This document shows, in pieces, positions 34,375-48,739 of a stretch of 64,000 bases of DNA; within the stretch, counting starts at the first letter, position 1; each line of letters opens with the position of its first letter. The stretch spans positions 4,162,501 to 4,226,500 of the forward strand of contig NZ_CP059560.1 in NCBI RefSeq assembly GCF_017894385.1, given 5' to 3'. A program made the translations under genes and the position numbers. The DNA comes from Aromatoleum petrolei. Its GTDB lineage: Bacteria > Pseudomonadota > Gammaproteobacteria > Burkholderiales > Rhodocyclaceae. The notes beneath the pieces are model-generated. The model saw nothing but the letters and a program-made list of their open reading frames with translations. It had not been told where the DNA came from and did not search any database.

Positions 34375-35738
34375 AAGGCCACATCCTGATCGTCGATGAC
34401 GAGGCGCTGTACCGGCAGCTCCTCACCAGCCGCCTGGGCCGCGCCGGTTACGGGCTGAGCGAGGCCGCCGACGGCGAGGCTGCGCTCGAATGCGCACAGC
34501 AGGGCGGCGTCGACCTCGCGCTGGTCGATATCAAGATGCCCGGCATCGACGGCATCGAGGTCCTCAAGCGCCTGAAGCAGCTCGACCCCCAGATCGAAGT
34601 CGTGATCCTCACCGGCCACGGCAATGTCGACAGCGCCATTTCGGCGATGAAGCTGGGCGCCTTCGACTACCTTTCGAAGCCCTACAAGCTCACCGAGCTC
34701 GACATCGTCGTCGAACGTGCGCTGGAAAAGCGCATGCTTGCGCGCCGCTGCGCCGCCCTCAGCGCCGAAGTCGCTCTCCTGCGCGGTGGCGACGACGCCG
34801 CGGTCATCGGCCGCAGCGCGGCATGGCAGCTTACCCTGGAGCTCGTGCGGAAGGCCGCGCCGCTCGACCTGCCCGTCCTCGTCACCGGCGAGAGCGGCGC
34901 CGGCAAGGAGATCGTCGCCGGCCTGCTGCACCGCTGGAGTGCGCGCGCAGCGGAAGCCTACGTCCCACTCAACTGCGGCCTGCTCGACGACGACCTGGTC
35001 GAAAGCGAACTCTTCGGCCACAAGCGCGGTGCGTTCTCCGGCGCCACGGCGGACAAGGAAGGCCTCTTCGAAGTCGCCAACGGCGGCACGCTGTTCCTCG
35101 ATGAAATCGGCGAACTCCCCGCCGCCTGCCAAGCCAAGCTGCTGCGCGTGCTCGACTCCGGCGAATTCCGCCAGCTCGGAGCGACCGCGCTGCGCCGCAC
35201 CGATGCGCGCGTCGTCGCCGCCACGCACCGCGACCTCGACTCGCTCGTCGCCGAAGGCAAGTTCCGCCACGACCTGTTGTACCGCCTCAACGTCGTGCAT
35301 ATCCCGGTGCCGCCGCTGCGCGAGCGTGTCGAGGACATCCCCCTGCTGGTCGAGCACCTCATACGCCGCAGCGCACGTTCCGCCGTGCCGCCCCGACTCA
35401 CGCCGGCCGCGCTCGCGCGCCTGTGCGCCTACCGCTGGCCCGGCAACGTGCGCGAACTGCGCAACGCCGTCGAGCGCCTCGTCGCATTCGGCGACGGCCA
35501 GACCATCGACGAGGACAGCGTGTGCGCGATCCTGCGCCTGCCGCTGGAAAAACCGGCGCAGTTCCCGTCGCCCGCGCCTGCCTTCACCGACATCCTGCCG
35601 CTCGAGCACATCGAGCGCGACTACGTGACCTGGGTGCTGGAGCGGCTCGACGGCAACGTCAGCGCCGCCGCACAGGCGCTCGGCGTTTCGCGCTCCACTG
35701 TCTATCGCGTGCTGCGCTCGGCGACCGCAGTAGAGTAA
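34371..35738 (+). CDS. Sigma54-dependent response regulator, NtrC type (PcrR-like)
   Basis: A 455-aa regulator. The receiver domain has Asp53 as phosphoacceptor (ALVDIKMPG). The AAA+ domain has Walker A GESGAGKE (173-180) and the sigma54-contact loop GAFSGA (220-225), where most family members have GAFTGA. A Fis-type HTH ends the protein (VSAAAQALGVSRSTVYRVL). It is translationally coupled to the kinase by a 4-base overlap. It probably activates sigma54 promoters of aromatic genes such as the one at 48675-48690. Confidence 0.93.
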   Translation: MKGHILIVDDEALYRQLLTSRLGRAGYGLSEAADGEAALECAQQGGVDLALVDIKMPGIDGIEVLKRLKQLDPQIEVVILTGHGNVDSAISAMKLGAFDYLSKPYKLTELDIVVERALEKRMLARRCAALSAEVALLRGGDDAAVIGRSAAWQLTLELVRKAAPLDLPVLVTGESGAGKEIVAGLLHRWSARAAEAYVPLNCGLLDDDLVESELFGHKRGAFSGATADKEGLFEVANGGTLFLDEIGELPAACQAKLLRVLDSGEFRQLGATALRRTDARVVAATHRDLDSLVAEGKFRHDLLYRLNVVHIPVPPLRERVEDIPLLVEHLIRRSARSAVPPRLTPAALARLCAYRWPGNVRELRNAVERLVAFGDGQTIDEDSVCAILRLPLEKPAQFPSPAPAFTDILPLEHIERDYVTWVLERLDGNVSAAAQALGVSRSTVYRVLRSATAVE

Positions 35739-36907: not shown

Positions 36908-37999
36908 CTAGAAACGAAATGCGTTGACGTGTCGCAGAAGGTAGCGAGCAAGCCCGACAAATACCGTCGCCCACGCGGCAAGCGCGATGTACATGAACAG
37001 CTGCGGCAGGAAGCGGAGGAACTCGAATCCCATCGCCTCGATCATCTGGTGGGTGCAGGTTGCGTACATGCCCAAGGGGAAGACCGCGCCCCAGTAGAGC
37101 GGGTCGTATCTCAACGGGAAGCGCCGATAGACGTGCCGCCAGATGAACAGGAGCAGCAGCATGGGAATCCACCATGTGCCGGTCGCCCAGTAAAAGACGG
37201 TGAAACCCTTGATGAACGGCAGCAGCGAAAGCAGGAAGGGGGCATCGGGCGAGTTCAGAATGAGCAGCGATCCGGCCAGGGTCGAGATTGCCATCGCGCC
37301 CATGTTGATCCAGTAAGGGGGCGACAAGTCACCGGGCGAGAACGGAAAGAACGTGTAGCGATAGAAGATCAACGACATCATCCAGATATAGAGCATGCCG
37401 CCCCACAACCACATCGACAGTGCCAGGAAGTTCATCTCCAGCCGCCCCGGCTGCTCGACATGAGGCGCAAGCAATGCGCTGAGCACCGCGATCGATTGCG
37501 TCGCCACGACGGCCAGTAGCCACGCCCCACTGATCCCCTGATGCAGCGGCGGCTTGTGCTCCTTGACCGTGAGGCCGGTGAAGATGGTGTAGGTGAGTCC
37601 GATCCATAGCACGCCCGCCCCTCCCCAGAGCGCCATGGCGGTGCGGTAATCCGCAGCCAGCACCACAAACTGGCTCCCGAGTACGCACGTGCCTGCCACG
37701 ATCGTGAAGAAACCGGGCCCGCGAAGGTGATCGATCAGATCGTCGAAGAACAGGCGCGGGTAGCGTACGACGCGCAAGATGGTCAGAAACCATAGCAAGA
37801 CATAGACGACGCAATTGAGCAGGAACAGCGCCTTGGCCACGGACTGCATTCCCAGCAGGTGTGTGGCGAGCGAGACGATACCCGTTGCCATGACCATGCC
37901 GAAATATGCCGGAGATAATCCGGCCAGCCGGGCTTGCACCGGTTCACCCTGCGGCCCGGTCGCTGTCGCGCTCTTGCATTCGAATGAAGGAGTTCTCAT
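36908..37999 (-). CDS. TDT family carrier (SLAC1 / TehA-like membrane protein)
   Basis: A 363-aa protein with about ten membrane helices. The first helix reads LAGLSPAYFGMVMATGIVSLA, the TDT/SLAC1 signature. Members include tellurite-resistance TehA, malate carriers and anion channels; the substrate cannot be told. It starts at ATG 37999. The ferric-reductase-like gene lies about 110 bp upstream on the same strand. Confidence 0.85.
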   Translation of the reverse strand: MRTPSFECKSATATGPQGEPVQARLAGLSPAYFGMVMATGIVSLATHLLGMQSVAKALFLLNCVVYVLLWFLTILRVVRYPRLFFDDLIDHLRGPGFFTIVAGTCVLGSQFVVLAADYRTAMALWGGAGVLWIGLTYTIFTGLTVKEHKPPLHQGISGAWLLAVVATQSIAVLSALLAPHVEQPGRLEMNFLALSMWLWGGMLYIWMMSLIFYRYTFFPFSPGDLSPPYWINMGAMAISTLAGSLLILNSPDAPFLLSLLPFIKGFTVFYWATGTWWIPMLLLLFIWRHVYRRFPLRYDPLYWGAVFPLGMYATCTHQMIEAMGFEFLRFLPQLFMYIALAAWATVFVGLARYLLRHVNAFRF

Positions 38000-38108
38000 C
38001 GCACGGGAAATGGCAAAGTGATTTGAGGCGGCTAACGTTTCAGCTCGACGGTGCGCCGCTTGCGCTGCGTCTTTTGCCGCGAGTCGTCAGGCCGCATTGC
38101 GGTTCTCA

Positions 38109-39443
38109 TCAACGCATCTGAAACAATTCTTGATGGAATCGCTCGGGCGGCAGGCCGTGGGCGAGAAAGTCCTCGCGCAGCGACTGACCGAACCCCCGCG
38201 GGCCACAGAACCAGATACTGGCCGACCGCCATTCCGGTACGGTGGCACGGATACGTTCGCCATTCAGCCGACCATCTTTCGGGCTGACAAGAAGGTGCAT
38301 GCGCACGCCCGCAACCTCGGCGTCAGCGGTAAGACGGTCAATCGCTGCCTGGTCGAACTCGGCAGTCGGGTGAAAGAGATCGATCGCCTTAGTGTCCGAT
38401 GTGGCGGCACGTTGTTTGAGGCGGGCGATAAACGGCGTGATGCCGATGCCCGCACCGATCCAAATCTGGCACGGTTGCTCGTCCTCGAAGTCGAAGCAGC
38501 CGTAAGGACCTTCCACCGTCACCGGCATGCCCACCTTCAACCGATCCCGCAAGCGGCCGGTGTGGTCGCCGAGTGCCTTGGTAATGAATACGAGCCGCCG
38601 GTCATCGGGGCTCCAGGCCGAGGCGATAGTGTAGGGGTGCGCGCCTTCGCTGGCATCCGAGGTGACGAAGGCAAACTGCCCGGCGGTATGGCCGCGCCAG
38701 CCTTCTCCCAGCACGAGGGAGGTTTCGAGTACGCGCAGCGCGGGGTAGTACGTCAGCGCATCGATTGTGCCCCGGGCCTTGCGGCCGGCCCCGATCCGGC
38801 CCGCCAGCGCCAACAGTGCAGCCACGCAGCCACCCAGCAGCAAGGCCGCCAGCAGCCAGCCAACAGGCTGAGACCAGTACTCCACCTTGGTAAGCACGGC
38901 GGAGTGATAGGCCAGGGCAAGGTAGGCGACCGCAAGCCATTTGTGGGTCTTGACGAACCAGTGGTAGGGGAAGCGCTTGACCAGGGCGAGAACAATCAGG
39001 ACAGCGGCCGCGTAGAACGCCCACTCGCCGACGGATTCGGCAAACCCCCGCTGGCTGCGCAGCCAAGCCTCGACGACGCCGAGGGTTTCCCCGGCGACAG
39101 GCTTGCGCGCGGGCTTTTCCAGCCATCCCCAACCCACCATCCATTTGGTGCCTTTCCCCCACCACCAGTGAATGCCACTGACCGCCAGGGCGGTGATGCC
39201 CATCCACTTGTGCAGGCGATACATCTTGTCCAGCCCGTCGAGATGCGGCTCCAGCCATTTCGGACGCAGCGCCAGCAGCATGACGATGCTCATCAGGCCG
39301 ATGCCGATCACCCCGCTGTACTGCATGAACACCGAGCGGAACGAAAAGTAGGTGAACGGCGCCGGCGTCAACGTATCGGCCCCCAGCCAGAGCGCCGTAA
39401 GCAGTAGCAGTACTGCAGAAAATGCCACCTTAATGCGCTTCAT
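38109..39443 (-). CDS. Ferric-reductase-like transmembrane flavoprotein
   Basis: A 444-aa membrane protein. The N-terminal half has about six helices with histidines for haem binding (MYRLHKWMGITALAVSGIHWWW, NHWFVKTHKWLAVAYLALAYHS-like segments). The C-terminal half is a ferredoxin-NADP reductase module with FAD-binding HPYTIASAW and nucleotide-binding IWIGAGIGITPFIARL and FCGPRGFGQSL. The family includes ferric reductases and NADPH-oxidase-like proteins that move electrons across the membrane. It is the last gene before the integron; its start lies 82 bases from the distal cassette gene. Confidence 0.88.
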   Translation of the reverse strand: MKRIKVAFSAVLLLLTALWLGADTLTPAPFTYFSFRSVFMQYSGVIGIGLMSIVMLLALRPKWLEPHLDGLDKMYRLHKWMGITALAVSGIHWWWGKGTKWMVGWGWLEKPARKPVAGETLGVVEAWLRSQRGFAESVGEWAFYAAAVLIVLALVKRFPYHWFVKTHKWLAVAYLALAYHSAVLTKVEYWSQPVGWLLAALLLGGCVAALLALAGRIGAGRKARGTIDALTYYPALRVLETSLVLGEGWRGHTAGQFAFVTSDASEGAHPYTIASAWSPDDRRLVFITKALGDHTGRLRDRLKVGMPVTVEGPYGCFDFEDEQPCQIWIGAGIGITPFIARLKQRAATSDTKAIDLFHPTAEFDQAAIDRLTADAEVAGVRMHLLVSPKDGRLNGERIRATVPEWRSASIWFCGPRGFGQSLREDFLAHGLPPERFHQELFQMR

Positions 39444-39524: not shown

Positions 39525-40301
39525 TCAGATTGCAGGCCACCATGGAACAGGCTTGCCTTTTTGGTAAGACCTACCGTCGTAATGCAAACTATGCTGTTCG
39601 ATACGGTCTTTGAGGTTCCCCGTGGCCGCGCCCATTGAATTTACCGTGATTCTTGCGGTAATCACCAAGTCGAATAGCCCATTCGTTCTTGCGTTGGCCA
39701 TGCCGACTGTCAGCGTGGCGTCTTCCCAGAGTGCCGACGATGTCGCCGCTGGGCAGCCCTCCAGCCACCTTTGTTGATACAAATTCAGGCTGGCGAGCGG
39801 TCGCAAATCCTTTCCCTCAGGGACAAGGAGAGTGAGTTCATCGTTCCAGTACGCCTCCCCGCAACTCGCTCCTCTAGCGGCACTGTTGAATCTCACCCCA
39901 AACGCTCTAACGTCATTAGCCAGCTGATACTTGGCGGTATCAAGCCTCAGACTGCGCTCCCCAACCTCCGTCGTCGCGTCTTCGTAGATAGCACGCTTTG
40001 AGCTACTACCTACCCGCTTTGTCTTCTTGTCTATCACGGCGACGATCAGGCTCTTTTCATATTCGACGCCCTCGTCGTAGGCAACTGCCACCAGAACTAA
40101 ATTGGGTTTGTACGGCCAAGTCTTGCATGCATCGGCAACCACGTTGCTTCCATCGGACCTCAGAGACAACTTGCTAATCGGGATGTCGCGCCTCAGTATT
40201 TCGAACACGCCCGTGGCGCATTCGTCCTCTCGCGTTGCCCCAAAGGCGATACCCGACAAGAGAGACAAGATCGCTCCGACTACGAGAGCGATGGTTTTCA
40301 T
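39525..40301 (-). CDS. Cassette 11 gene: exported protein of unknown function
   Basis: A 258-aa protein beginning MKTIALVVGAILSLLSGIAFGA, a Sec signal peptide with cleavage near GAFGA/T. The mature part has a few cysteines (ECATGVF, GASCGEAY, EGCPAAT) that could form disulfides; I recognise no family. ATG 40301 has AAGGA upstream, while the longer frame to 40457 runs through the neighbouring attC. It is the most distal cassette gene and has no recognisable attC after it. Confidence 0.75.
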   Translation of the reverse strand: MKTIALVVGAILSLLSGIAFGATREDECATGVFEILRRDIPISKLSLRSDGSNVVADACKTWPYKPNLVLVAVAYDEGVEYEKSLIVAVIDKKTKRVGSSSKRAIYEDATTEVGERSLRLDTAKYQLANDVRAFGVRFNSAARGASCGEAYWNDELTLLVPEGKDLRPLASLNLYQQRWLEGCPAATSSALWEDATLTVGMANARTNGLFDLVITARITVNSMGAATGNLKDRIEQHSLHYDGRSYQKGKPVPWWPAI

Positions 40302-40340
40302 GTTGTTGATTCCTTTCTCCGGTGAGTTCGCACCCTTTAC

Positions 40341-40398
40341 GCCCAACGTCTGAATCCATCGGCCGGCGCAGCTTGTCCGGTGGAATGATGGGTTGGGC
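40341..40398 (-). repeat. attC site of cassette 10
   Basis: 58 bp between GCCCAAC (40341-40347) and GTTGGGC (40392-40398), with internal complementarity around CCGGCGCAGCTTGTCCGG. It separates cassettes 10 and 11. Confidence 0.8.
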
Positions 40399-40410
40399 CT
40401 CGGCGGCCAG

Positions 40411-40842
40411 CTATTCAACCGCACGCAAATCTCCTGTCGGTGAATCAGGCCTACCACTGACGCTGACCATTACCCATTGGCTGTCTTGGCGGAGATAGAC
40501 CTCAGACCACTTGCCTGTGACCTGCAGCGGTGCTGCGTCCTTCGGGGTGACTGACGCCGAATACATGTAGTGCACAATGCCGACGGTGCGGTCGTACACC
40601 TGCACACTCAGCGGAACAAGCTCATAGCCAGTAACGGCTGGCGCATCACCGAGCACGGACTGAATAGCAGTCTCTCGGTCGTGGGTGGTCGACTGATTCA
40701 TGTCCCAGCCGACATATCGAGGATGGATGGTTGAGCGAATCTTCTCGGCGTTGCGCTCCAACGACAATGACCACAGATCGTTTACCCGCTGCCATAACTC
40801 CTGCTGCTCGGGAGAGAGTCCAGTAACCGGGCGTTCAGACAT
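40411..40842 (-). CDS. Cassette 10 gene: SnoaL/NTF2-like protein
   Basis: A 143-aa protein with a likely NTF2-like cone fold (LWQRVNDLWSLSLERNAEKIRSTIHPRYVGWD, then a beta-rich second half ending RQDSQWVMVSVSGRP), the pattern of DUF4440/SnoaL-type proteins. No catalytic residues can be assigned. It is a cytoplasmic protein with no signal. The stop TAG lies 13 bases before its attC. Confidence 0.7.
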   Translation of the reverse strand: MSERPVTGLSPEQQELWQRVNDLWSLSLERNAEKIRSTIHPRYVGWDMNQSTTHDRETAIQSVLGDAPAVTGYELVPLSVQVYDRTVGIVHYMYSASVTPKDAAPLQVTGKWSEVYLRQDSQWVMVSVSGRPDSPTGDLRAVE

Positions 40843-40862
40843 GGCGTGTCATTCTCAAAGAG

Positions 40863-40934
40863 GCCCAACGTGACGCTTCAGGTGACGGCAAAAAGCGCAG
40901 CTTTTTGCCGGTCGGCTGCAAGCGCTTGTTGGGC
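40863..40934 (-). repeat. attC site of cassette 9
   Basis: 72 bp bounded by GCCCAAC (40863-40869) and GTTGGGC (40928-40934). The centre AAAAAGCGCAGCTTTTT forms the hairpin shared with several other attC sites here. Confidence 0.85.
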
Positions 40935-40941
40935 GTGCTCA

Positions 40942-41400
40942 TCAGCCGCCGGCCGCAGCGGCAAAGCTTGATCGTAGGCCTTCAAGGACACCGATTGCTC
41001 TTCCCAACTTCTGTGATGGCGATAGATTGTCATTCACGAGGAGAAGCTGAATCGTGTACGCAGGCCAAGACATTTTGAGTTGAAGATATTGCTGTACTTT
41101 CGGAAGGTCGAGGCCCTCAAGAAAGATAAGGGTTTGCGTCAAGAAGGCCTCGACCCTGTCTGGCATTGTCGCCCCCTCTATCCGCCCACCTGATTCTATG
41201 AGCTTTCCACACTCAATCAAGATTTCATTCTTCAAAACACGACCGACAAGATTTTTCTTGAGCTCATAACTGCCCTTAATTACGGTTTCCTGATTTGTTA
41301 TCTTGAGCAGTCCGATGTACGCGCTTACGCCAGCAATAAACCCGGTGATGATTGCACCAAGGAAAACCACTGCTGGGCTGTTATTAATGATCTCTTCCAC
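40942..41400 (-). CDS. Cassette 9 gene: membrane-anchored protein of unknown function
   Basis: A 152-aa protein with one N-terminal membrane helix (VVFLGAIITGFIAGVSAYIGLL) and a helical soluble domain of about 115 residues. I recognise no family. It lies between two well-formed attC sites, which supports it as a real cassette gene. Confidence 0.65.
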   Translation of the reverse strand: MEEIINNSPAVVFLGAIITGFIAGVSAYIGLLKITNQETVIKGSYELKKNLVGRVLKNEILIECGKLIESGGRIEGATMPDRVEAFLTQTLIFLEGLDLPKVQQYLQLKMSWPAYTIQLLLVNDNLSPSQKLGRAIGVLEGLRSSFAAAAGG

Positions 41401-41434
41401 TCAATGGTCTCCGCAGCTGTGTCTTTGGCTTGAA

Positions 41435-41527
41435 GCCCAACGTAGAAGTGAGGGGCAGCCGGAGCGCGAAGCGCGGAGGGCACCAAAAGCGTAGCTTTTG
41501 GCTGTCCCCTCCACTGCCCGGTTAGGC
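41435..41527 (-). repeat. attC site of cassette 8
   Basis: 93 bp bounded by GCCCAAC (41435-41441) and GTTAGGC (41521-41527), with the complementary inner pair AGGGGCAGCC/GGCTGTCCCCT and the CAAAAGCGTAGCTTTTG centre. Confidence 0.85.
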
Positions 41528-41563
41528 GATATGCAACGCTTATGTTGCATTTCGGCATGGAAA

Positions 41564-41875
41564 CTACGCTTCGCCATCGTTTTCTCCCTCGGTGTCGGTT
41601 TTCGTCGAGCCTCCAAGCAATAGCAGCATGAGGCCAGCGGGAAATGCTGGAAGACCAATGAATAACGCGCCGAGAATACCCCTGGTCGCGACTAGTTTGG
41701 CGTGGCTAATAGCTGCAATGCCACCCAAAAGAACTGACAAGCCGCCAAACGCAAGGCACCAGTTTGTGAGTGACTGGCGAGCTTTGGCTTTTTCCTGACC
41801 GCTGAACAATCCGAGCAAAAGAAAGCCAGCGGGCAAGCCAAGAGCGATCAAGCCGAAATATTCCTCAAGGGTCAT
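41564..41875 (-). CDS. Cassette 8 gene: small membrane protein (103 aa)
   Basis: Three probable membrane segments (FGLIALGLPAGFLLLGLF, WCLAFGGLSVLLGGIAAI, ILGALFIGLPAFPAGLMLLLLG) and an acidic tail (TEGENDGEA). Not recognised. It starts at ATG 41875, close behind the preceding attC, and its frame ends 37 bases before its own attC. Confidence 0.6.
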   Translation of the reverse strand: MTLEEYFGLIALGLPAGFLLLGLFSGQEKAKARQSLTNWCLAFGGLSVLLGGIAAISHAKLVATRGILGALFIGLPAFPAGLMLLLLGGSTKTDTEGENDGEA

Positions 41876-41882
41876 TCTTGAT

Positions 41883-41951
41883 GCCTAACGCCGTGATAAC
41901 CGGGCGGCAAAAGCGTAGCTTTTGACGATCCGGTTGATTTGAGTGTTAGGA
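41883..41951 (-). repeat. attC site of cassette 7
   Basis: 69 bp bounded by GCCTAAC (41883-41889) and GTTAGGA (41945-41951); inner arms TAACCGGGCGGC / GATCCGGTTGA and the CAAAAGCGTAGCTTTTG centre. The GTTAGGA end departs from GTTRRRY in its last base. Confidence 0.78.
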
Positions 41952-41958
41952 CAAAGCG

Positions 41959-42747
41959 CTAGATGCTCGGTGAGTGTCGTTTTGGGCCTTTCCATCGGAA
42001 TAGTGCCAGTGCTTCGTGAAGAATGTAGTGGAGTTTTTGCATGGACTCTGGTGACACATCAACTTCGCCGTAATGTCCGTCCGCCATGGTTGATCCGTAT
42101 TTTGACCCATTGAGACTGTTCAGTACGAGAACACCACCTCCGGGAGCATGAATGGCATCGCTAACGATAGGTTTTAGATCTAATGGCTTTGGATCTCGAC
42201 CGGCGCCGAGTCCTCGCGCCCTGTCTTCGAGGTGTTGCGCAGTGTTCCTTACGCCTCGCAGATCAGGAAAGAATTCGGAGATTATGGAGTGGGTCACGAC
42301 GAGTTCTTGGGGCACACCTGGTTCTCGTGAGAGCACTCCGAGAAACTTATCAAACGAATCGAGGGCGTAGAGAAACGCTCGAGCATAAATGAAGGCTTGA
42401 TTGTGCGCAAACTCCCTCGGCATGCGACCTTTGGACCATTGTTCTCGCTTGAATCGAACCTCGGTTTCAAAATAGATCTCGCTCCAATGGTCAACAAAAA
42501 ATTGCCCGCCTTGCTCGTGTTCAACCTGTTGCCGAATTTCGGAGCGACGCCGGGCATCGAGTTTCCATTGGTCACGATCTGGCCGTGCAGGGGGAGACGA
42601 TTGAGCTTGAATGAATAGATTAAGGGCCGCATTAGCCTCAAAGAACTGCGACTCCAAATTACGCAGCAAGCCTTCAATTCTCCAAGACCAATCGTGGTCC
42701 TCGTAATCTAGCCAAGTACCCGGCGTTGTAATTTCGAACACAAACAT
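41959..42747 (-). CDS. Cassette 7 gene: soluble protein of unknown function
   Basis: A 262-aa, probably mostly helical cytoplasmic protein (begins MFVFEITTPGTWLDYEDHDW) with a charged middle (RREIR-type and FKREQWSKGRMPREFAHNQAF segments). No signal, membrane segment or catalytic motif that I know. It is the largest cassette gene here. Confidence 0.65.
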   Translation of the reverse strand: MFVFEITTPGTWLDYEDHDWSWRIEGLLRNLESQFFEANAALNLFIQAQSSPPARPDRDQWKLDARRRSEIRQQVEHEQGGQFFVDHWSEIYFETEVRFKREQWSKGRMPREFAHNQAFIYARAFLYALDSFDKFLGVLSREPGVPQELVVTHSIISEFFPDLRGVRNTAQHLEDRARGLGAGRDPKPLDLKPIVSDAIHAPGGGVLVLNSLNGSKYGSTMADGHYGEVDVSPESMQKLHYILHEALALFRWKGPKRHSPSI

Positions 42748-42762
42748 CGTAGAGCCCTAAGA

Positions 42763-42829
42763 TCCTAACGTAATAGTGAGCGGACCTGCGCCGCTTTTGG
42801 CGCAGGTCCGCTCGACTGTTGGGTTGGGC
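42763..42829 (-). repeat. attC site of cassette 6
   Basis: 67 bp bounded by TCCTAAC (42763-42769) and GTTGGGC (42823-42829); a GTTGGGT also overlaps at 42818. The inner arms GCGGACCTGCGCC / GGCGCAGGTCCGC are a perfect 13-bp palindrome. Confidence 0.8.
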
Positions 42830-42834
42830 CTCGA

Positions 42835-43353
42835 TTAGTTCAATGCTTTCATTGTTCCGCGAAGGTTTTCCGGAACATCTTGGATTAGCATAACCGTGAT
42901 GCCACCATCAACAGCCCTATTGTTATGAGATGATTTTGGATTTGCGGGCAAATTGGCATTAATGTTTTCTGGGGAAAGGTTGTACATTTTGCCGTTTAAC
43001 GGATCAACGATTAGCCACCCAATTAGCCCGCCAAACAACAAGTTTCCTCCAATGTACCAGCCACTAGGGCTTCCAGTAACTGGTATTGTTTGCGTTTCAA
43101 AACCTGCTTTAGCAATGGTGACTGTATATGATTTTTTGCCAAAATAACTACCGTCAGCTTTCTTCAGGGTAATAGTAGATGGCGTATTACCTTTGAAAAT
43201 CTCTAATCCCTTTTCATCTGTGATCCTGATGCTAGCATCACTAGGTGTGCTACTGATTGGCATGACATGGGTATCGCTACCCATGATCGTAGCGCAACCC
43301 GCCAAAGGCACTAAGAGTGCAAAAAATATAAATTTCAAAGCTGTATTTTTCAT
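42835..43353 (-). CDS. Cassette 6 gene: lipoprotein with PEGA-like domain
   Basis: A 172-aa lipoprotein: MKNTALKFIFFALLVPLAGCATI has a clear lipobox LAGC. The next segment (SSTPSDASIRITDEKGLEIFKGNTPS, KKADGSYFGKKSYTVTIAKAGFE) resembles a PEGA-type surface domain, and a glycine-rich hydrophobic stretch follows (GGNLLFGGLIGWLIVDPLNGKMYNL), as in some small outer-membrane lipoproteins. ATG 43353 has GGGAG upstream. The gene is visibly AT-rich compared with the chromosome. Confidence 0.8.
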   Translation of the reverse strand: MKNTALKFIFFALLVPLAGCATIMGSDTHVMPISSTPSDASIRITDEKGLEIFKGNTPSTITLKKADGSYFGKKSYTVTIAKAGFETQTIPVTGSPSGWYIGGNLLFGGLIGWLIVDPLNGKMYNLSPENINANLPANPKSSHNNRAVDGGITVMLIQDVPENLRGTMKALN

Positions 43354-43412
43354 TTTTTTAACTCCCAAATCCCCTGGAAATAAATCGAGCATCTTCGGGG
43401 GTGAGCGAAGAG

Positions 43413-43481
43413 ACCCAACGTGGAAATAACCGGACGGAAAAAGCGCAGCTTTTTACGGTCCGGTTGATTGTAGGGTTATGC
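43413..43481 (-). repeat. attC site of cassette 5
   Basis: 69 bp bounded by ACCCAAC (43413-43419) and GTTATGC (43475-43481); inner arms AACCGGACGG / CCGGTTGA and the AAAAAGCGCAGCTTTTT centre. The stop codon of cassette 5 (43476-43478) lies inside it. Confidence 0.8.
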
Positions 43482-44180
43482 ATCGGCGCCGAAACGCTCC
43501 TTCATTACGTCAGACGCGCTCTGTTCTTTGCCCCACCGGCCCTTTTCGGAGTTAAAGGTTTCTGCGTCCTTCTCATGTCTTATCAACCAGTCTGCAAACT
43601 TCTTGCCACGGGGCGTTAAGAATAATTTGTCTTTTCCGCCAGAGAGGTACAAGAGTTCAGTTCCTTGGAGTTTTCTCACAAAGCTTCCGGGTGAAAATAG
43701 GCCAAATGAAACGCCCTTTCCTCGGGTTACAATTTCATAGCGATGTGTAAATCCTTGATCGTTGATATCCGATATATCAAGGGTGTCGTTAGTTCTGCGC
43801 ATTAGGACTATATGTTGCTTGGCATCCTCAATAATTAAGTTGTCCATAAGCGAAAACAAGGCATCCTCGTCAAATGGATTTTCCTCAAGCTTCGTGACTG
43901 CAAGAGCCGTTTCCGCGGGTATCCCTTTCAAAGCCTTTGCGTAAATCTCGGGTGATATTTGTCCATATTCTGTCGGGCCGTAAAAGTTCTCCGGCTTAAA
44001 CCACAGAAAGGCAAAGAAGATTGCTGTCACTACGGTAGAGTAGGAAATGACGAAGATCACTAATGCAGCTTGAGGCCACCCATCAATCTTCACAGCCGCC
44101 AGTCCTGCAGTGGCCTCTGCAAATAGTATGAAGAGACCAATCAGCCACAATGGCGACCCCTTAAAGTGTTGAAGCATCAT
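43476..44180 (-). CDS. Cassette 5 gene: membrane protein with C-terminal cytoplasmic domain
   Basis: A 234-aa protein with two N-terminal membrane helices (LWLIGLFILFAEATAGLAAV, ALVIFVISYSTVVTAIFFAF) and a soluble domain of about 165 residues. The end (KLFLTPRGKKFADWLIRHE) looks like the last part of a winged helix, so a membrane-tethered DNA-binding role is possible but unproven. The TAA lies inside the following attC. Confidence 0.65.
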   Translation of the reverse strand: MMLQHFKGSPLWLIGLFILFAEATAGLAAVKIDGWPQAALVIFVISYSTVVTAIFFAFLWFKPENFYGPTEYGQISPEIYAKALKGIPAETALAVTKLEENPFDEDALFSLMDNLIIEDAKQHIVLMRRTNDTLDISDINDQGFTHRYEIVTRGKGVSFGLFSPGSFVRKLQGTELLYLSGGKDKLFLTPRGKKFADWLIRHEKDAETFNSEKGRWGKEQSASDVMKERFGADA

Positions 44181-44189
44181 AGTTCCTAT

Positions 44190-44288
44190 GCATAACGTTT
44201 GAGGTAACCGGCCGTCGGAGCCGCGAAGCGGCGGAGGGAACCTGCAAGCGCGGCTTGCAGGCGGTCCGTGTTGACCGAGAGGTTAGCC
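44190..44288 (-). repeat. attC site of cassette 4
   Basis: 99 bp, the longest of the set, bounded by GCATAAC (44190-44196) and GTTAGCC (44282-44288). Inner complementarity includes GCCGTCGGAGCCGC / GCGGCGGAGG and CTGCAAGC / GCTTGCAG. Confidence 0.75.
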
Positions 44289-44756
44289 GTCATTGCCGGT
44301 CGTGACGTTCTGCTGCCTAGGCGAGCCGTCTGCGACATTGCGCAACCGATCGGTTTCAAGAACCAGCTTTGCGATTTCAGCTCGAAGTTTCTCAATCTGC
44401 AATGTGGCAAGTAGGTCATCGCGTGCTTGAATCGTTGTGCGCCAGCGACGGGCGCCGTAAATGCTTAGCATTAGCCCAACGGCGAATGTGCCGCCGATAG
44501 CGGAATGTGCGGTGCGCTCATTGCCCTTTGCGACTTCAATCAGCTTTCGATTTAGTTCAAGAGTCTGCTGTTCTGCTTTCGTCAGCGTTTCCTTGGCCTC
44601 CAGCGGGATGATCGCCTCGCTCAGCTTCACCTTTCTGTCGAGGGTGGAGGAATACACCGTGACGAAGGAAAGTATGGACACGATGATCATGGCGAGGCCA
44701 AACAAACAGGCGAACTTATAGATGTTGTCAGTGGCAATTGGCAGATTGGGAACCAT
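44283..44756 (-). CDS. Cassette 4 gene: two-helix membrane protein with coiled-coil parts
   Basis: A 157-aa protein with membrane helices at about residues 14-36 (FACLFGLAMIIVSILSFVTVY) and 86-104 (IGGTFAVGLMLSIYGARRW), and charged heptad-like stretches between and after them (TLTKAEQQTLELNRKLIEVAK, LQIEKLRAEIAKLVLETDRL). Not recognised. The TAA at 44283-44285 lies inside the attC. Confidence 0.65.
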   Translation of the reverse strand: MVPNLPIATDNIYKFACLFGLAMIIVSILSFVTVYSSTLDRKVKLSEAIIPLEAKETLTKAEQQTLELNRKLIEVAKGNERTAHSAIGGTFAVGLMLSIYGARRWRTTIQARDDLLATLQIEKLRAEIAKLVLETDRLRNVADGSPRQQNVTTGNDG

Positions 44757-44764
44757 AGGAAGAC

Positions 44765-44851
44765 GGCTAACGTAGAGCTAACCGGCGCTGCGCGGCTCTA
44801 TCGCGCAGCGTCCAGAGAGCGAAGCGAACGGGGTTGAGCGCCGGGTTAGAG
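44765..44851 (-). repeat. attC site of cassette 3
   Basis: 87 bp bounded by GGCTAAC (44765-44771) and GTTAGAG (44845-44851); inner stem CGCTGCGCG / CGCGCAGCG and AACCGGCGCTG / AGCGCCGGGTT. Confidence 0.75.
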
Positions 44852-45484
44852 AACGCTGCCGACATGCCGATTGTGGTATGCAATGAACTCTGATCCAACT
44901 ACATGCCCTGCGACAGCTTTAAATTTTTCAGGCTCTAGTGGGGCCACGAAGTAATCGAGGGCAACATGACAGTTCGGGCAAACAACGATGATGTTTTCCG
45001 GTATGTCTGGGCCAAAGTGAGGAGTACCCAGTGGCTTTATGTGATGAGCTTCCGAGTAGGTTTTGCCATTAAGATTGATTCTTGTCTCACAAAGCTGGCA
45101 TACATCCTTGTGGAGGAATTTAATCTTCCTCGCAAGTTCTGTATCGCGAAGTACTCGATACGTATTTTGCGTAACACGCTCCGGTGATTCCGTTCCAAGC
45201 GGAAGCTGCCCAATATCACCTGCAACCGGTGTGGGCTTAAGTTGGTTTCTGAGCCCCCATATGCCAGCACCTAGACCATGAACCGAAAAGAACAGATCGT
45301 TATTGGACGAGAACGCTTTTGAATCCGAAGAGTTACGTTCGATAGCGCCACGAACTGTCGCTTCCAGTGCTTTCGGATACGGTGCTGGTCGGACATTCTT
45401 GATTTCTTCGTAGATAGCGCTGAGTGTGGCAATGCCGCCCAGCTTGCCAAGCGCGATTTCGATATCGTCTGACCAAGTTGCCAT
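44846..45484 (-). CDS. Cassette 3 gene: HNH endonuclease with winged-helix-like N-terminus
   Basis: A 212-aa protein. Residues about 1-80 (ATWSDDIEIALGKLGGIATL, then VRGAIERNSSDSKAF and DLFFSVHGLGAGIWGLR) resemble the HARE-HTH / Mrr_N winged-helix found on restriction-type nucleases. Residues about 125-190 form an HNH domain: CQLCETRI, the SEAHHIKPLG histidine pair, and IPENIIVVCPNCHVALDY. The four cysteines would bind zinc. It has no adjacent methyltransferase. A stand-alone, possibly modification-dependent nuclease is the best guess. TAA lies inside the attC. Confidence 0.82.
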   Translation of the reverse strand: MATWSDDIEIALGKLGGIATLSAIYEEIKNVRPAPYPKALEATVRGAIERNSSDSKAFSSNNDLFFSVHGLGAGIWGLRNQLKPTPVAGDIGQLPLGTESPERVTQNTYRVLRDTELARKIKFLHKDVCQLCETRINLNGKTYSEAHHIKPLGTPHFGPDIPENIIVVCPNCHVALDYFVAPLEPEKFKAVAGHVVGSEFIAYHNRHVGSVL

Positions 45485-45496
45485 GTCTATTGAGTT

Positions 45497-45560
45497 CTCT
45501 AACGGTTAAGGTAAGGGGCGCGCCGCTTGCGGTGCGTCCCGCTTGACCGAATTGTTAGGG
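45497..45560 (-). repeat. attC site of cassette 2
   Basis: 64 bp bounded by CTCTAAC (45497-45503) and GTTAGGG (45554-45560), with the GCGCGCCGCTTGCGGTGCGT stem in the centre. Core sequences are degenerate at their outer base. Confidence 0.72.
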
Positions 45561-46042
45561 TTGTCGGGATCAATCTCCCATAAATATTCCCGCGCCACCC
45601 GAAAGTAGTCAGCTCGCCGACGTTGACGCGTGTACTTCCGAAGTCGCCACGTCCCATAAGCGCCAACGGCTGATAAGGCGGTAAGCCATATGATGCGGTT
45701 AGATTCTTCGTGAGAAATGGCGATTAGAATAGGTATCGGTATCGCAATAACAATATGATCTAAAGGCCTTAGCCATTCGTCAATATATCCTTGTTTACGA
45801 AAGATTCGGAGCAGAGCTCTGTACAGCACAAAAAGCAACGCCCCTGCAGAAAACAGAATTAGCCCAGCGGACCGAAATTGCGGCTTGGGGCTTGAAAGTA
45901 AAGTGGCGCCTGATACCAGCAAAACGATGCTACACACGAAAAACTTATACAAGGCCTTCCAGCGCCGAACAGTGGGGTTATGCATCCGCCTAATCCGTCG
46001 TTTTATCTCGGCGCGAAGGATCTTGCGATCGATTTTTTTCAC
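45506..46042 (-). CDS. Cassette 2 gene: four-helix membrane protein
   Basis: A 178-aa basic membrane protein with about four helices (FFVCSIVLLVSGATLL, AGLILFSAGALLFVLYRALL, HIVIAIPIPILIAIS, IIWLTALSAVGAYGTW). The reading frame runs through most of its own attC (stop at 45506, 9 bases from the far core), so the last 16 residues are attC-encoded. Unknown function. Confidence 0.65.
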   Translation of the reverse strand: MKKIDRKILRAEIKRRIRRMHNPTVRRWKALYKFFVCSIVLLVSGATLLSSPKPQFRSAGLILFSAGALLFVLYRALLRIFRKQGYIDEWLRPLDHIVIAIPIPILIAISHEESNRIIWLTALSAVGAYGTWRLRKYTRQRRRADYFRVAREYLWEIDPDNPNNSVKRDAPQAARPLP

Positions 46043-46044
46043 TG

Positions 46045-46116
46045 GCCTAACGTGGAAGATCAGCCGACGGGCAAAAGCGCAGCTTTTGACCTGTCGGCTG
46101 TAGCGTAGTGTTGGGC
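46045..46116 (-). repeat. attC site of cassette 1
   Basis: 72 bp bounded by GCCTAAC (46045-46051) and GTTGGGC (46110-46116); inner arms CAGCCGACGG / CTGTCGGCTG and the CAAAAGCGCAGCTTTTG centre. A model attC. Confidence 0.88.
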
Positions 46117-46218
46117 GACATCGCTTCGGCTGGACTCGTGGTATTTTCGCAATCGCTTGTATCGAACGCTAATTCCCGTTGATCGCCCACGCATATTGAG
46201 TTGGCTAAATGCATAAAT

Positions 46219-46902
46219 TTAGTCCGAACGATAAAAACCTGAACCATCCTGAAATTTCCACCATTGCAAAGAGTTCCAGTCACATTCGCACTCTGCACGT
46301 CCAGGGCAGAGACGTGCATACGTGTTTTCCTCAGAATAATAGTGGAGGGTAACCGTATAAAACGATTTGCCGCGGTTCCTTGCAAGGGGGATAGCCTGAC
46401 TTTCACCATAGTGTGACAGCATGAACAGGCTACCCCATGCCTCTTTAGGTGCGGTAGTCACCTCGATTCCAAACTTGCAGGGAAACGGCTTGATGCAAGC
46501 ATAGAGCCCGGCGTATTCGTAAGCGGGCCTTGTTGGCGCGATATCTTTCGGGTTGTACGGGTAGGTCTTGACACTACATCCATCGCGAGAGGCCCAGTGT
46601 TCTGGAGATAGCGAAGAATAAATGGCTCTACAGATTTCCGCTGGCGCCATATCGGAAGAAAACAACTTCCTGATCTCGGCCATTTTGCACTTACGGCTTG
46701 CGCTGCCTTCCTCGTAGACAAGCGTGCCCATCGAAGGAAACGGAAGCTCGTTGTACTTCGATGCGACGATTTCACGCAGACGAGTGTTCTCTTCATCATT
46801 GTCTGCTTCCCATGCTCTGAAATATTCGGTAGCGAGGTAAATAATAGAAAGGACTGTGAAAATCGCAGCGAATACAGGTAGCCGAAGCCTCGCTCTTATC
46901 AT
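46219..46902 (-). CDS. Cassette 1 gene: membrane-anchored, cysteine-rich protein of unknown function
   Basis: A 227-aa protein with one N-terminal helix (LPVFAAIFTVLSIIYLATEYF) and an outside-facing domain with about nine cysteines (SRKCKM, AEICRAI, DGCSV, YACIKPFPCKFG, ARLCPGRAECECDW). Not recognised. ATG 46902 lies only 3 bases from the attI-side core (46906-46912), so translation must use a leader transcribed through attI. It is the newest cassette by position. About 100 bases between its stop and attC hold nothing I can name. Confidence 0.65.
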   Translation of the reverse strand: MIRARLRLPVFAAIFTVLSIIYLATEYFRAWEADNDEENTRLREIVASKYNELPFPSMGTLVYEEGSASRKCKMAEIRKLFSSDMAPAEICRAIYSSLSPEHWASRDGCSVKTYPYNPKDIAPTRPAYEYAGLYACIKPFPCKFGIEVTTAPKEAWGSLFMLSHYGESQAIPLARNRGKSFYTVTLHYYSEENTYARLCPGRAECECDWNSLQWWKFQDGSGFYRSD

Positions 46903-47041
46903 GGCGCCCAACAGTTGTAGTAGACGGAATCGGCCGGTAGTGGGATAGGCCGAATCGGCCTATTGTTGGCTATGACGGATGACGATAGCATTGGCTGCGA
47001 TCCCTGTAACGACTTCTTACAACGCAACATAGCCGACGCAT
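46903..47041. other. attI region and integrase 5' flank
   Basis: The recombination core GCCCAAC (46906-46912; GTTGGGC on the minus strand) marks the attI side of cassette 1. At 46945-46963 lies a palindrome ATAGGCCGAATCGGCCTAT, and a further GTTGGCT core-like string at 46965-46971. The cassette promoter and the integrase promoter must be here or inside intI; no clear LexA box was found. Confidence 0.65.
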
Positions 47042-48406
47042 ATGACTCTGTCAAACGCCCCCGAGGCGGTACTACGGTTTTGGCGCAACTATCGGACTCT
47101 GTTGGGGAATTCCGGTGTGAAGCCCGGTGCCGCGGAGTGGTATGTGCGACACGCGGAGGACTATCTGAAGGCGTTTGAGGGGCGACGGCTGGCGACGCAC
47201 ACGGCGGCGGAGGTGGAGGCGTGGCTGGCGGAGCGCGGCAGGATAGGCCGATTGCAGGCGTGGCAGTTTGGCCAGGTGGTGGAGGCGGTGAGGCTGTTGT
47301 TGCAGTTGGCACACGCGCCGGCTGCTGCGGCGGTCGACTGGGACTTCTGGCGGGAGGCCGGGCGCGAGCTGCCGGCGACGCACCCTACGCTTGCCCGTAG
47401 CCTCGCGCCGAAGCCCTCTGCTGGCGAAGTGGAGGGCGGCAAAGGCGTGGATGCGTTGCGCGGTCAGTTGGTGGCGGTTATCCAGCAACGCAATTATTCG
47501 ATCCGGACCGAGGAGGCGTATTGCGGGTGGCTGGACCGGTTTGCGCGCTTTCTTAAAGGGGCGGATCCGCGCGCGGCGGGAGCGGTGGAGGTAAAGGCCT
47601 TTCTTCAGGATCTTGCGGTGCAGGGGCGGGTGGCGGCGAGCACGCAGAACCAGGCGCTCAATGCGCTGGTGTTTCTCTACGACAAGGTTCTGGAGCGACC
47701 GCTGGGAGATCTGGGGAGCTTTGCGCGGGCGAAGCGTCCGCAGCGTCTGCCCGTGGTGTTGTCGCGGGACGAGGTCGTGCGTCTGCTGGGGCGGATGGAC
47801 GGCGTGCACGGGATGATGGCGGCGCTGCTGTATGGCACGGGGATGCGCCTGATGGAGTGTGTGCGACTGCGGGTGAAGGATCTCGACTTCGAGTATCGGC
47901 AGATCGTGGTCCGTGATGGGAAGGGGCAGAAGGACAGGGTCGTGCCGATGCCCGCGCGCCTGGTGGATGGCTTGCAGGCGCATCTGGCGAAGGTGTGGGG
48001 GCTCCATCACGAGGACTTGGCGCGGGGGGCGGGCGCCGTGTTCCTCCCCGACGCGCTGGAGCGCAAGTATCCGGCGGCGCCGAGGGAGTGGGGCTGGCAG
48101 TACGTGTTTCCGGCGAGCCGCTTGTCGGCCGATCCGCGCAGCGGTGTGGTGCGCCGGCACCATTTGCATGAGAGCAGCTTGCAGAAGGCGGTGCATCGCG
48201 CGACGCGCGAGGCAAGTTTGAGCAAACCAGTGAGTTGCCATGCGCTGAGGCACAGTTTCGCGACGCACGTGTTGGAGGCGGGCTACGACATCCGCACAGT
48301 GCAGGAGCTGCTCGGGCACTCGGACGTGTCGACGACGATGATCTACACGCACGTCTTGAACCGGGGAGGGCGTGGCGTGCGGAGCCCGCTCGACGTGGTG
48401 GGGTGA
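47042..48406 (+). CDS. intI: Integron integrase (IntI family tyrosine recombinase) with N-terminal extension
   Basis: A 454-aa tyrosine recombinase; IntI proteins are usually about 320-340 aa. The typical part starts near residue 135 ([22 protein letters not shown]). Catalytic residues are present: Arg269 (GTGMR), His400 and Arg403 ([13 protein letters not shown]), His426 (LLGHSDV) and Tyr435. The IntI-specific insert between patches is visible at about 338-360 ([20 protein letters not shown]). The first 130 residues add a second SAM-like, possibly DNA-binding helical domain ([23 protein letters not shown]). No stop or frameshift, so it may be active. It reads away from the cassettes, the usual geometry. 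Confidence 0.93.
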
Positions 48407-48739
48407 ATTCCTGAGCGACGTCTTCGGAACTAGGCGACCGTGGGGGCTTCTTGTGACGGGCCTCCGAGTGTCGCAAATCTGGACGGTGTCTGTTTTTGCG
48501 ATTCGCGCTGCTGTCGCCTCGCTGCGTCCGTGTTGTCGCGGGCCGGCGGGGCGGTGGCGCGTCGATGTGTCTGGATTCTGGACAGCCGACCCTCGCGGCA
48601 GGCGGCGGACCTGCATGCCGCGTTGCGTATCTAAGTATCTGTAAATAAAGAAGTGTTGTTCGCCTGCGCACGGCAGGCATTGCGCTTGCTCTACCTTTTC
48701 CGAAGAAGTTGGAAGGCCAACAATCAGGAGGAGGTGGAA
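48407..48739 (+). promoter_or_regulatory. Control region of the p-cresol operon (no gene seen)
   Basis: This 333-bp stretch holds a perfect 7-bp inverted repeat TCGCAAA (48471-48477) / TTTGCGA (48495-48501), placed about 215 bases before the expected start point as an upstream activator site would be. An AT-rich stretch follows at 48627-48655, a possible bend. The sigma54 promoter lies at 48675-48690. Short open frames here are not gene-like. Confidence 0.55.
48675..48690 (+). promoter_or_regulatory. Sigma54 (-24/-12) promoter ahead of pchC
   Basis: AGGCATTGCGCTTGCT keeps GGCA and TTGCT with exactly 10 bases between the GG and GC dinucleotides, compared with consensus TGGCAC-N5-TTGCW. It would start transcription near 48701, 39 bases before pchC, and agrees with control by an NtrC-type regulator. 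Confidence 0.7.

Follow-up and report, generated by a model that had tools for sequence, protein, structure and literature searches.

A chromosomal integron of Aromatoleum petrolei carries an attachment site, attI, that recurs at the head of two remote attC arrays with no integrase gene found beside them. The element occupies part of the window, by which we mean the whole stretch of 64,000 nucleotides analyzed (assembly GCF_017894385.1, contig NZ_CP059560.1; G000:C1:4162501-4226500, where G000 is the handle of the window's own genome, a single contig of 5.4 Mb), and lies between a PcrSR-like sensor/regulator gene pair and the p-cresol (pch) operon. With its ten attC sites, the pch integron appears to be the sole integrase-bearing member of three platforms in this chromosome. 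Our leading reading, to which we give a probability of about 0.5 on the sequence evidence, is that a single integrase acts in trans on several platforms headed by attI. IntI would excise, insert, and shuffle cassettes through recombination at folded attC sites and at attI, and this one enzyme would also act on both satellite arrays. The satellites would be former complete integrons that lost intI and kept attI, perhaps together with a cassette promoter. Relatives were compared in sets of 17 genomes for the genus, 395 for the family, and 369 for the class. Two integrase types occur in the genus, a long one, as in the window, with an N-terminal extension, and a short one, and the attI sequences differ between the two.

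Orphan attI sites head arrays that lack an integrase

Next to intI, the attI block is conserved among the three genomes with a long integrase (G000, G322, and G233) from the AAC core on, while the array side differs. This block recurs outside the window at G000:C1:2798169-2798232 (E 5e-12) and 1400494-1400554 (E 9e-12), as copies of ~60 bp that head the two other attC clusters of the chromosome. A covariance model of attC (R1, described below) placed 39 of 40 genome-wide matches (5.4 Mb, E<=10) in three clusters, one of them the pch array; strong sites are also counted through their reverse-strand echoes, and the list, which lacks site a8, comes from scoring 150 of the 986 first-look candidates. 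The remote arrays hold 19 and 5 attC sites, weaker matches at E<=1 counted, and none of the 11 places listed in a genome search with PF00589 is near either of them. With two or more attC sites and no intI nearby, both are clusters of attC sites lacking integron integrases (CALINs). The arrays, their attI copies, and the lack of an integrase match beside them are direct observations.

Across the genus, the list of long-type attI matches has 15 rows: three sites beside intI, ten copies that were studied, and two reverse-strand echoes of palindromes. No intI was found within 3.8-5 kb on the intI side of the ten copies, where tblastn gave one stray match (29.5% identity, E 0.35), and by eye a short stretch beside orphan copies resembles the start region of intI. 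Sites matching attC lie on the expected strand and side at eight of the ten; one further copy has a weak match (14.9 bits) and one is at a contig end. The orphan sites look like attI descendants, as they are 79-88% identical to long attI over 31-90 bp. For the short type, a list of 21 rows comprises five pch sites, 12 fetched copies, and four weak rows left out (G311:C177, G167:C20, G044:3738310, and G000:2192436). On the matching side, each of the 12 fetched copies has an attC match with E<=1, which for two of them scores only 15-18 bits. They form a series, seven with decayed intI and five with none, which suggests that intI is lost before attI.

One satellite address, beside leuA (identified by Pfam), can be followed in five species, whose right flanks are 86.6-93.7% identical over 8.9-9.8 kb. 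The core box is kept in four of the five, with unrelated sequence to its left (~350 bp of which is available for G167 and 3.4 kb for G262). Among these four, identity is 0.85-0.93 in attI, 0.66-0.87 in the next 100 bp, and 0.51-0.81 in the next 300 bp, rising to 0.89-0.93 in the leuA-side DNA at 600-1600 bp. Between G000 and G311, the right flank is 92.7% identical and a 3.4-kb left block, starting 4.2 and 3.5 kb from attI, is 92.6% identical; between these flanks there is no common stretch of >=150 bp, only attC-sized matches. At this address, then, the orphan attI is conserved above the adjacent intergenic DNA, and array content differs by species.

The integrase has a probable additional core-binding-like domain

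IntI matches TIGR02249, the integron integrase family, at 457 bits (cut-off 265) over residues 143-452, as well as PF13495 and PF00589, and has R269, K294, H400, R403, H426, and Y435, which we take to be its catalytic residues. Its best match among solved structures is VchIntIA (PDB 2a3v), the fold-search rows spanning residues 134-445 only and barely covering the extension. Its named relatives include integrases of Aromatoleum toluvorans and A. toluclasticum.

Residues 1-138 matched no Pfam family. When hhalign set a profile of 35 extensions against one of 74 core-binding domains, with near-duplicates retained, the two aligned with a probability of 94.3% (E 1e-7, 80 ungapped columns). A hidden Markov model (HMM) of the extension alone matched 53 of the 58 short IntIs, with scores of 14-29 bits and E<=1e-3 for this small set, mostly over the core-binding region in the listed rows, which were not checked singly. 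In an AlphaFold model, extension helices 7-23, 28-44, 55-66, and 73-89 repeat the pattern of helices 136-149, 154-170, 181-193, and 199-216; the model was built on 11 sequences and has a mean pLDDT (predicted local distance difference test) of 68.7 and a pTM (predicted template modeling score) of 0.44, leaving domain placement unsure. Homology and predicted fold together indicate that the extension is most likely a second core-binding-like domain. The ratio of nonsynonymous to synonymous substitution rates (dN/dS) over residues 1-122 is 0.19 for G000-G233 and for G322-G233, and that of the core is 0.10 in these pairs and in G000-G322. This extra domain would help integrases of the long clade bind attI, for instance through the pair of direct repeats, each with a palindrome, that overlap the site. 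The palindrome of the repeat nearer intI is by eye the best conserved part of 13 aligned attI sites.

The extension was matched in 47 of the 369 class genomes (E<=0.001, the window's own genome counted and some frames broken) and also in loci named Allochromatium, Thiocapsa, Ectothiorhodospira, Candidatus Thiodiazotropha, Desulfobulbus, and Desulfobacterales metagenome-assembled genome (MAG). R1, a narrow model, matched attC (E<=1, matching strand) in 6 of 17 and 5 of 22 long-IntI loci of other groups. Among 72,556 plasmid records the extension found one match (Candidatus Thiodictyon syntrophicum, 38.7%), and among 50,697 phage records none.

The motif CTGT-N8-ACAG, which we take to be the LexA box, was sought upstream of long intI in three genomes and of short intI in two of five. 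The best match before long intI has two mismatches, so an SOS-type LexA box was not found there; short intI has a LexA-like box with one mismatch ~40 nt upstream of its start.

Service in trans or dead relics

The orphan sites could instead be the fossils of an ordinary chromosomal integron, the remote arrays stemming from duplicated integrons that lost intI and became immobile, and their attI decaying slowly. We regard this as a serious possibility, somewhat short of even odds. Decayed intI beside 7 of the 12 short-type attI copies examined fits it, as do the leuA-side copy of G233, which has lost the core box, attI-proximal content that differs even where intI remnants alone remain, and CALINs at conserved loci, as described for Xanthomonas in the portion of PMC12444791 available to us. 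A passive fossil sits less easily with the leuA-side platform, where conservation is higher in the orphan attI than in the 400 bp of intergenic DNA beyond it and the core box is intact with different neighbors in four of five species, and with a 115-bp stretch containing attC that the two satellites of G000 share at 98.3% identity.

Several observations weigh against service in trans. First, G137, G276, and G299, which carry intI remnants and gave no integrase match at E<=1e-40, were taken as a natural control, arrays being expected to be frozen without an intact integrase of the site's type. Their orthologous platforms differ in the attI-proximal 1.6-7.2 kb as well, so turnover may predate the loss of intI; blocks common to them farther out may hold old cassettes. 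Second, recurring blocks that were considered as cassette exchange between platforms encode IS110-type and DDE transposases. The ~1.6-kb block occurs on the leuA side in G233 and at pch in G249 and G167, and also at G044_5197 and G333_C235; the ~1.85-kb block occurs at pch in G044 and in C13 of G167, and also at G311_C294. As insertion sequences they say nothing about cassette exchange, which lowers the odds of service in trans. Third, the type of the enzyme is not always that of the site: G167, G311, and G262 hold long-type orphan attI with one IntI only, a short one, and G100 has an IntI of another short lineage. Fourth, the higher identity of attI may reflect gene conversion. Finally, the attI-binding role proposed for the extra domain draws on position and homology only, and dN/dS of the extension is 0.67 for G000-G322, which on 18 changes indicates weak constraint over a short time.

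As elements in their own right, the two insertion sequences (IS110-type, L245:12468-14048; DDE, L241:6428-8268) recur in the platforms of several species, at pch, on the leuA side, and at other addresses, and may favor integron arrays as targets.

Two integrase/attI modules alternate at shared addresses

Genes of the pchF type are present in all 17 genus genomes, that of G344, which the survey of the address excludes, being only 33% identical. At the pch address, intI is open in 8 of the 17, with long IntI in G000, G322, and G233 (the last placed by inference, as the contig with its integrase and the one with its pch genes both break off within pchC) and short IntI in G167, G044, G262, G249, and G311. 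Remnants are found in three more (G333, G100, and G192), no integrase is seen there in G213, G288, G137, and G276, and the stretch fetched for G299 yielded neither IntI nor the sensor/regulator. Homology of the right flank resumes in the intergenic DNA between intI and pchC, ~10-190 nt beyond the intI stop codon. Open genes in eight genomes and remnants in three more make the address between the pcrSR-like genes and the pch operon an old one, and the integron, being chromosomal and at the same place in relatives, is probably of the sedentary kind. The comparison of this locus among relatives proposed in an initial annotation of the window thus finds the integrase missing, decayed, or open with other array content. 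That annotation also suggested that the element may be diversifying a catabolic cluster, an idea that two observations leave unsupported: no cassette gene matched a family for aromatic catabolism, and relatives have the pch genes with no integrase there. Neither the extra integrase domain, nor the alternation of integrase types between relatives, nor the two remote arrays, which lie beyond the window, figured in that annotation.

Further recombinase genes occur in the genus. In G249, a second tyrosine recombinase, 31% identical to the IntI core, adjoins the integrase (L105:5606-6430). G333 has two more integrases of other short lineages elsewhere (L118 and L119) besides its decayed pch one, and G322 has another attC array, with seven matches at E<=1 and intI broken in two frames (L248:1-8000).

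In an unrooted tree of the core region (103 rows), all 52 long IntIs fall on one side of a branch with 100/100 support and the 51 short ones on the other, consistent with a single origin of the extra N-terminal part; the short IntIs of the pch address form a clade among the 51. The tree uses 46 of 80 loci, themselves the best 80 of 583; L205 (extension 41.7 bits) and the long branch L079 were left out, and L147 and L155, whose frames are broken, were labeled long by tblastn range. An earlier Xer-rooted tree (65 rows, duplicates and fragments removed) had the long forms branching as a basal grade, but its outgroup branches are very long, and it is superseded by the unrooted one. A tree of the rpoB region, for which 16 of 17 genomes had a match, contains two sister pairs split by type, G000 (long) with G311 (short) and G233 (long) with G249 (short), both pairs with 100/100 support, and forces at least three changes of type.

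The same alternation is seen at a second address, locus 2, which lacks intI and lies beside a gene with an extracellular contractile injection system (eCIS) core domain. The right flank is common to G000, G167, G311, G044, and G333, and attI there is long in G000 and G167 and short in G311, G044, and G333. Between G000 and G311, the right flank is 96.0% and the distal left flank 97.3% identical; the flanks enclose attI together with 14.8 kb in one genome and with 4.9 kb in the other, ~1.8 kb of the latter being insertion sequence, and no stretch of >=200 bp is common to the two. The host neighbor of this second satellite platform is a 1216-residue protein with the eCIS core domain (L121:10569-14219).

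Taken as a whole, a distributed integron, in which one integrase with two core-binding-like domains serves scattered attI platforms and two distantly related integrase/attI modules replace each other at shared addresses between sister species, even at the intI-less locus 2, seems to us rather unlikely. Both types may instead have been present at the pch address in the genus ancestor, in tandem or as a polymorphism, and been sorted among descendants with no exchange between species. We consider this possible but less likely than not. Within each type, integrase order broadly follows the rpoB tree by eye, and the 3' end of intI, considered as a swap point, gave no clear signal of recombination: third-position identity at conserved residues 405-440 is 0.58 between long IntIs and short ones of the site, with controls at 0.50 and 0.54, one of the five short rows (G249s) being the wrong open reading frame, that of the 31%-identical recombinase, and included in the means. 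Sorting must, however, accommodate the forced type changes and the two split sister pairs, the alternation at locus 2, and the fact that none of the fetched stretches shows the two types together at the address. That the two types are one lineage diverged in place, gaining or losing the N-terminal domain locally, agrees with the identical address and orientation but is rejected, under their model, by the core-domain tree, which separates the address-sharing integrases too, and by an approximately unbiased (AU) test of these as one clade (p 7.9e-8), and it would leave the differing attI sequences to be explained.

Relation to known integrons

The usual picture of an integron has one integrase, one attI, and one array, and takes intI-less arrays for attC-only leftovers; standard tools know the attI of few mobile classes only. 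If conserved attI sites do head intI-less arrays, chromosomal integrons can be multi-site systems invisible to such tools, and one enzyme may serve several distant arrays. An integrase clade with a second core-binding-like domain would offer a handle on attI recognition by IntI, and two integrase/attI modules alternating at one address would be a natural experiment on whole-platform exchange.

The sedentary chromosomal integrons of Vibrio, Xanthomonas, and Pseudomonas (VchIntIA, PDB 2a3v) differ from the present one, which has the extra N-terminal core-binding-like domain, ten cassettes only, and attI copies heading two more chromosomal arrays. The CALINs of Xanthomonas resemble the satellites as intI-less attC arrays at conserved loci and can be mobilized in trans (PMC12444791); the arrays here differ in keeping a recognizable attI of the resident integrase, and the available portion of that paper mentions no attI at CALINs. 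Insertion at attG, a genomic site that is neither attC nor attI (cited in the same portion of PMC12444791), likewise offers a route to an array away from intI, but the orphan sites here have their 79-88% identity to long attI over 31-90 bp. A group of longer IntIs, clade 15 of the Deltaproteobacteria, has ~120 extra residues through a common gene fusion and was suggested to be functional (Nemergut et al. 2008, PMC2426708, as available in part). It shares the greater length with the long IntIs, and Desulfobulbus and Desulfobacterales MAG loci carry the extension here; the accessible text neither names the added part nor mentions Aromatoleum. Clade 15 would be the same group as the long IntIs, to judge from length and host. 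The literature searched, in the portions available, gave nothing on attI-headed arrays without an integrase (PMC12444791 included), nothing naming an extra IntI domain (PMC2426708, PMC3414803, and PMC4792948 included), and nothing on module alternation at fixed addresses.

The rarity of such arrays in this kind of host, as the initial annotation had it, is not borne out. TIGR02249 scores above its cut-off in 219 of the 395 family genomes, so that the integron is of a common kind for this family, and integrases of Azoarcus sp. EbN1 and Dechloromonas aromatica are in print (PMC3108266 and PMC2426708, available in part).

The cassette array

The chromosomal integron first called from the sequence is real, having the TIGR02249 integrase, the attI-side block, and ten attC sites (Table 1). 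The attC sites were placed through their paired outer boxes; strict 7-mers give four, and the other six were found by eye with relaxed first and last bases. Single-strand DNA folds compared with shuffles gave z of -2.1 to -8.8 for eight sites and weak values for a7 (-1.9) and a8 (-1.0). All ten thus have paired outer boxes and a structured bottom strand, two of them weakly. The covariance model R1 was built on six sites (a2, a4, a5, a6, a9, and a10), and it recovers the held-out ones, a1 (39.2 bits) and a3 (36.2 bits) clearly, a7 (18.4 bits, E 0.17) and a8 (18.6 bits, E 0.15) marginally. Rfam at gathering scores gave one match over the window, a tRNA.

Of the eleven cassettes initially counted, ten genes are followed by an attC site and stand; the eleventh, with none after it, may belong to the host or be a cassette whose site has been lost. 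Catabolic or defense cassettes were considered and rejected: Pfam and NCBIfam gave no aromatic-catabolism family for any cassette gene, and PADLOC, queried without cassette 2, matched cassette 3 alone (HNH; mREase_IV, 26.3 bits). A search of 43 genus stretches for the eleven array genes, with thresholds of E<=1e-6 for ten of them and 1e-3 for the eleventh, gave no match. The array genes at 39.5-46.9 kb all lie on the minus strand, divergent from intI, the layout of classical integrons.

Table 1. Features of the pch integron, in window positions, from the array's far end to intI
Feature	Position	Strand	Description	Basis
Eleventh gene	39525..40301	-	PA3715 family, 258 aa; no downstream attC	132.8 bits (cut-off 70) for the longer frame, 39528-40457
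attC a1	40341..40398	-	last of the array	fold and covariance model
Cassette 10 gene	40411..40842	-	143 aa, DUF4440	
attC a2	40863..40934	-		fold and covariance model
Cassette 9 gene	40942..41400	-	152 aa, no family assigned	
attC a3	41435..41527	-	model match 41458-41527	fold and covariance model
Cassette 8 gene	41564..41875	-	103 aa; TsoY match far below cut-off	
attC a4	41883..41951	-		fold and covariance model
Cassette 7 gene	41959..42747	-	262 aa, no family assigned	
attC a5	42763..42829	-		fold and covariance model
Cassette 6 gene	42835..43392	-	185 aa; LEPBI_I2678 match far below cut-off	
attC a6	43413..43481	-		fold and covariance model
Cassette 5 gene	43476..44180	-	234 aa, no family assigned	
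attC a7	44190..44288	-	weak	fold and covariance model
Cassette 4 gene	44283..44756	-	157 aa, no family assigned	
attC a8	44765..44851	-	weak	fold and covariance model
Cassette 3 gene	44846..45484	-	212 aa, HNH endonuclease	
attC a9	45497..45560	-		fold and covariance model
Cassette 2 gene	45506..46042	-	178 aa; weak HlyIII match below cut-off	
attC a10	46045..46116	-		fold and covariance model
Cassette 1 gene	46222..46902	-	227 codons with stop, no family assigned	
attI (long type)	46906..46966	-	R box 46906-46912, GTTGGGC on minus; 13 recognizable places in the genus, 3 beside intI	
Two 25-bp direct repeats overlapping attI	46921-46945 and 46946-46970		72% alike; CCGAWTCGG-like palindrome in each	palindromes by eye
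intI	47042..48406	+	integron integrase, 454 aa: extra core-binding-like domain (residues 1-138), normal core-binding domain (~139-225), then catalytic domain	
intI part coding the N-terminal extension	47042..47455	+		homologous to core-binding domain

Neighboring genes

The flanking genes encode XylR_N sensor kinase, sigma-54 response regulator, cytochrome, FAD-linked oxidase, and aldehyde dehydrogenase domains, in agreement with the position first described, between a sensor/regulator pair and the p-cresol operon. Genes for a SLAC1-type channel and a ferric-reductase-like protein (36911-39443) separate the regulators from the array; a SLAC1 gene is at the equivalent place in G249, and the reductase is without a match in the other genus stretches compared at the pch address. 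The intergenic region before pchC (48470-48689) is alignable in 8 of 8 genomes compared and contains two TGTC...GACA-like elements. Within it, a GG-N10-GC sequence (48676-48689) resembles by eye a sigma-54 promoter, which would fit the predicted sigma-54 regulator encoded at 34371-35738, across the integron.

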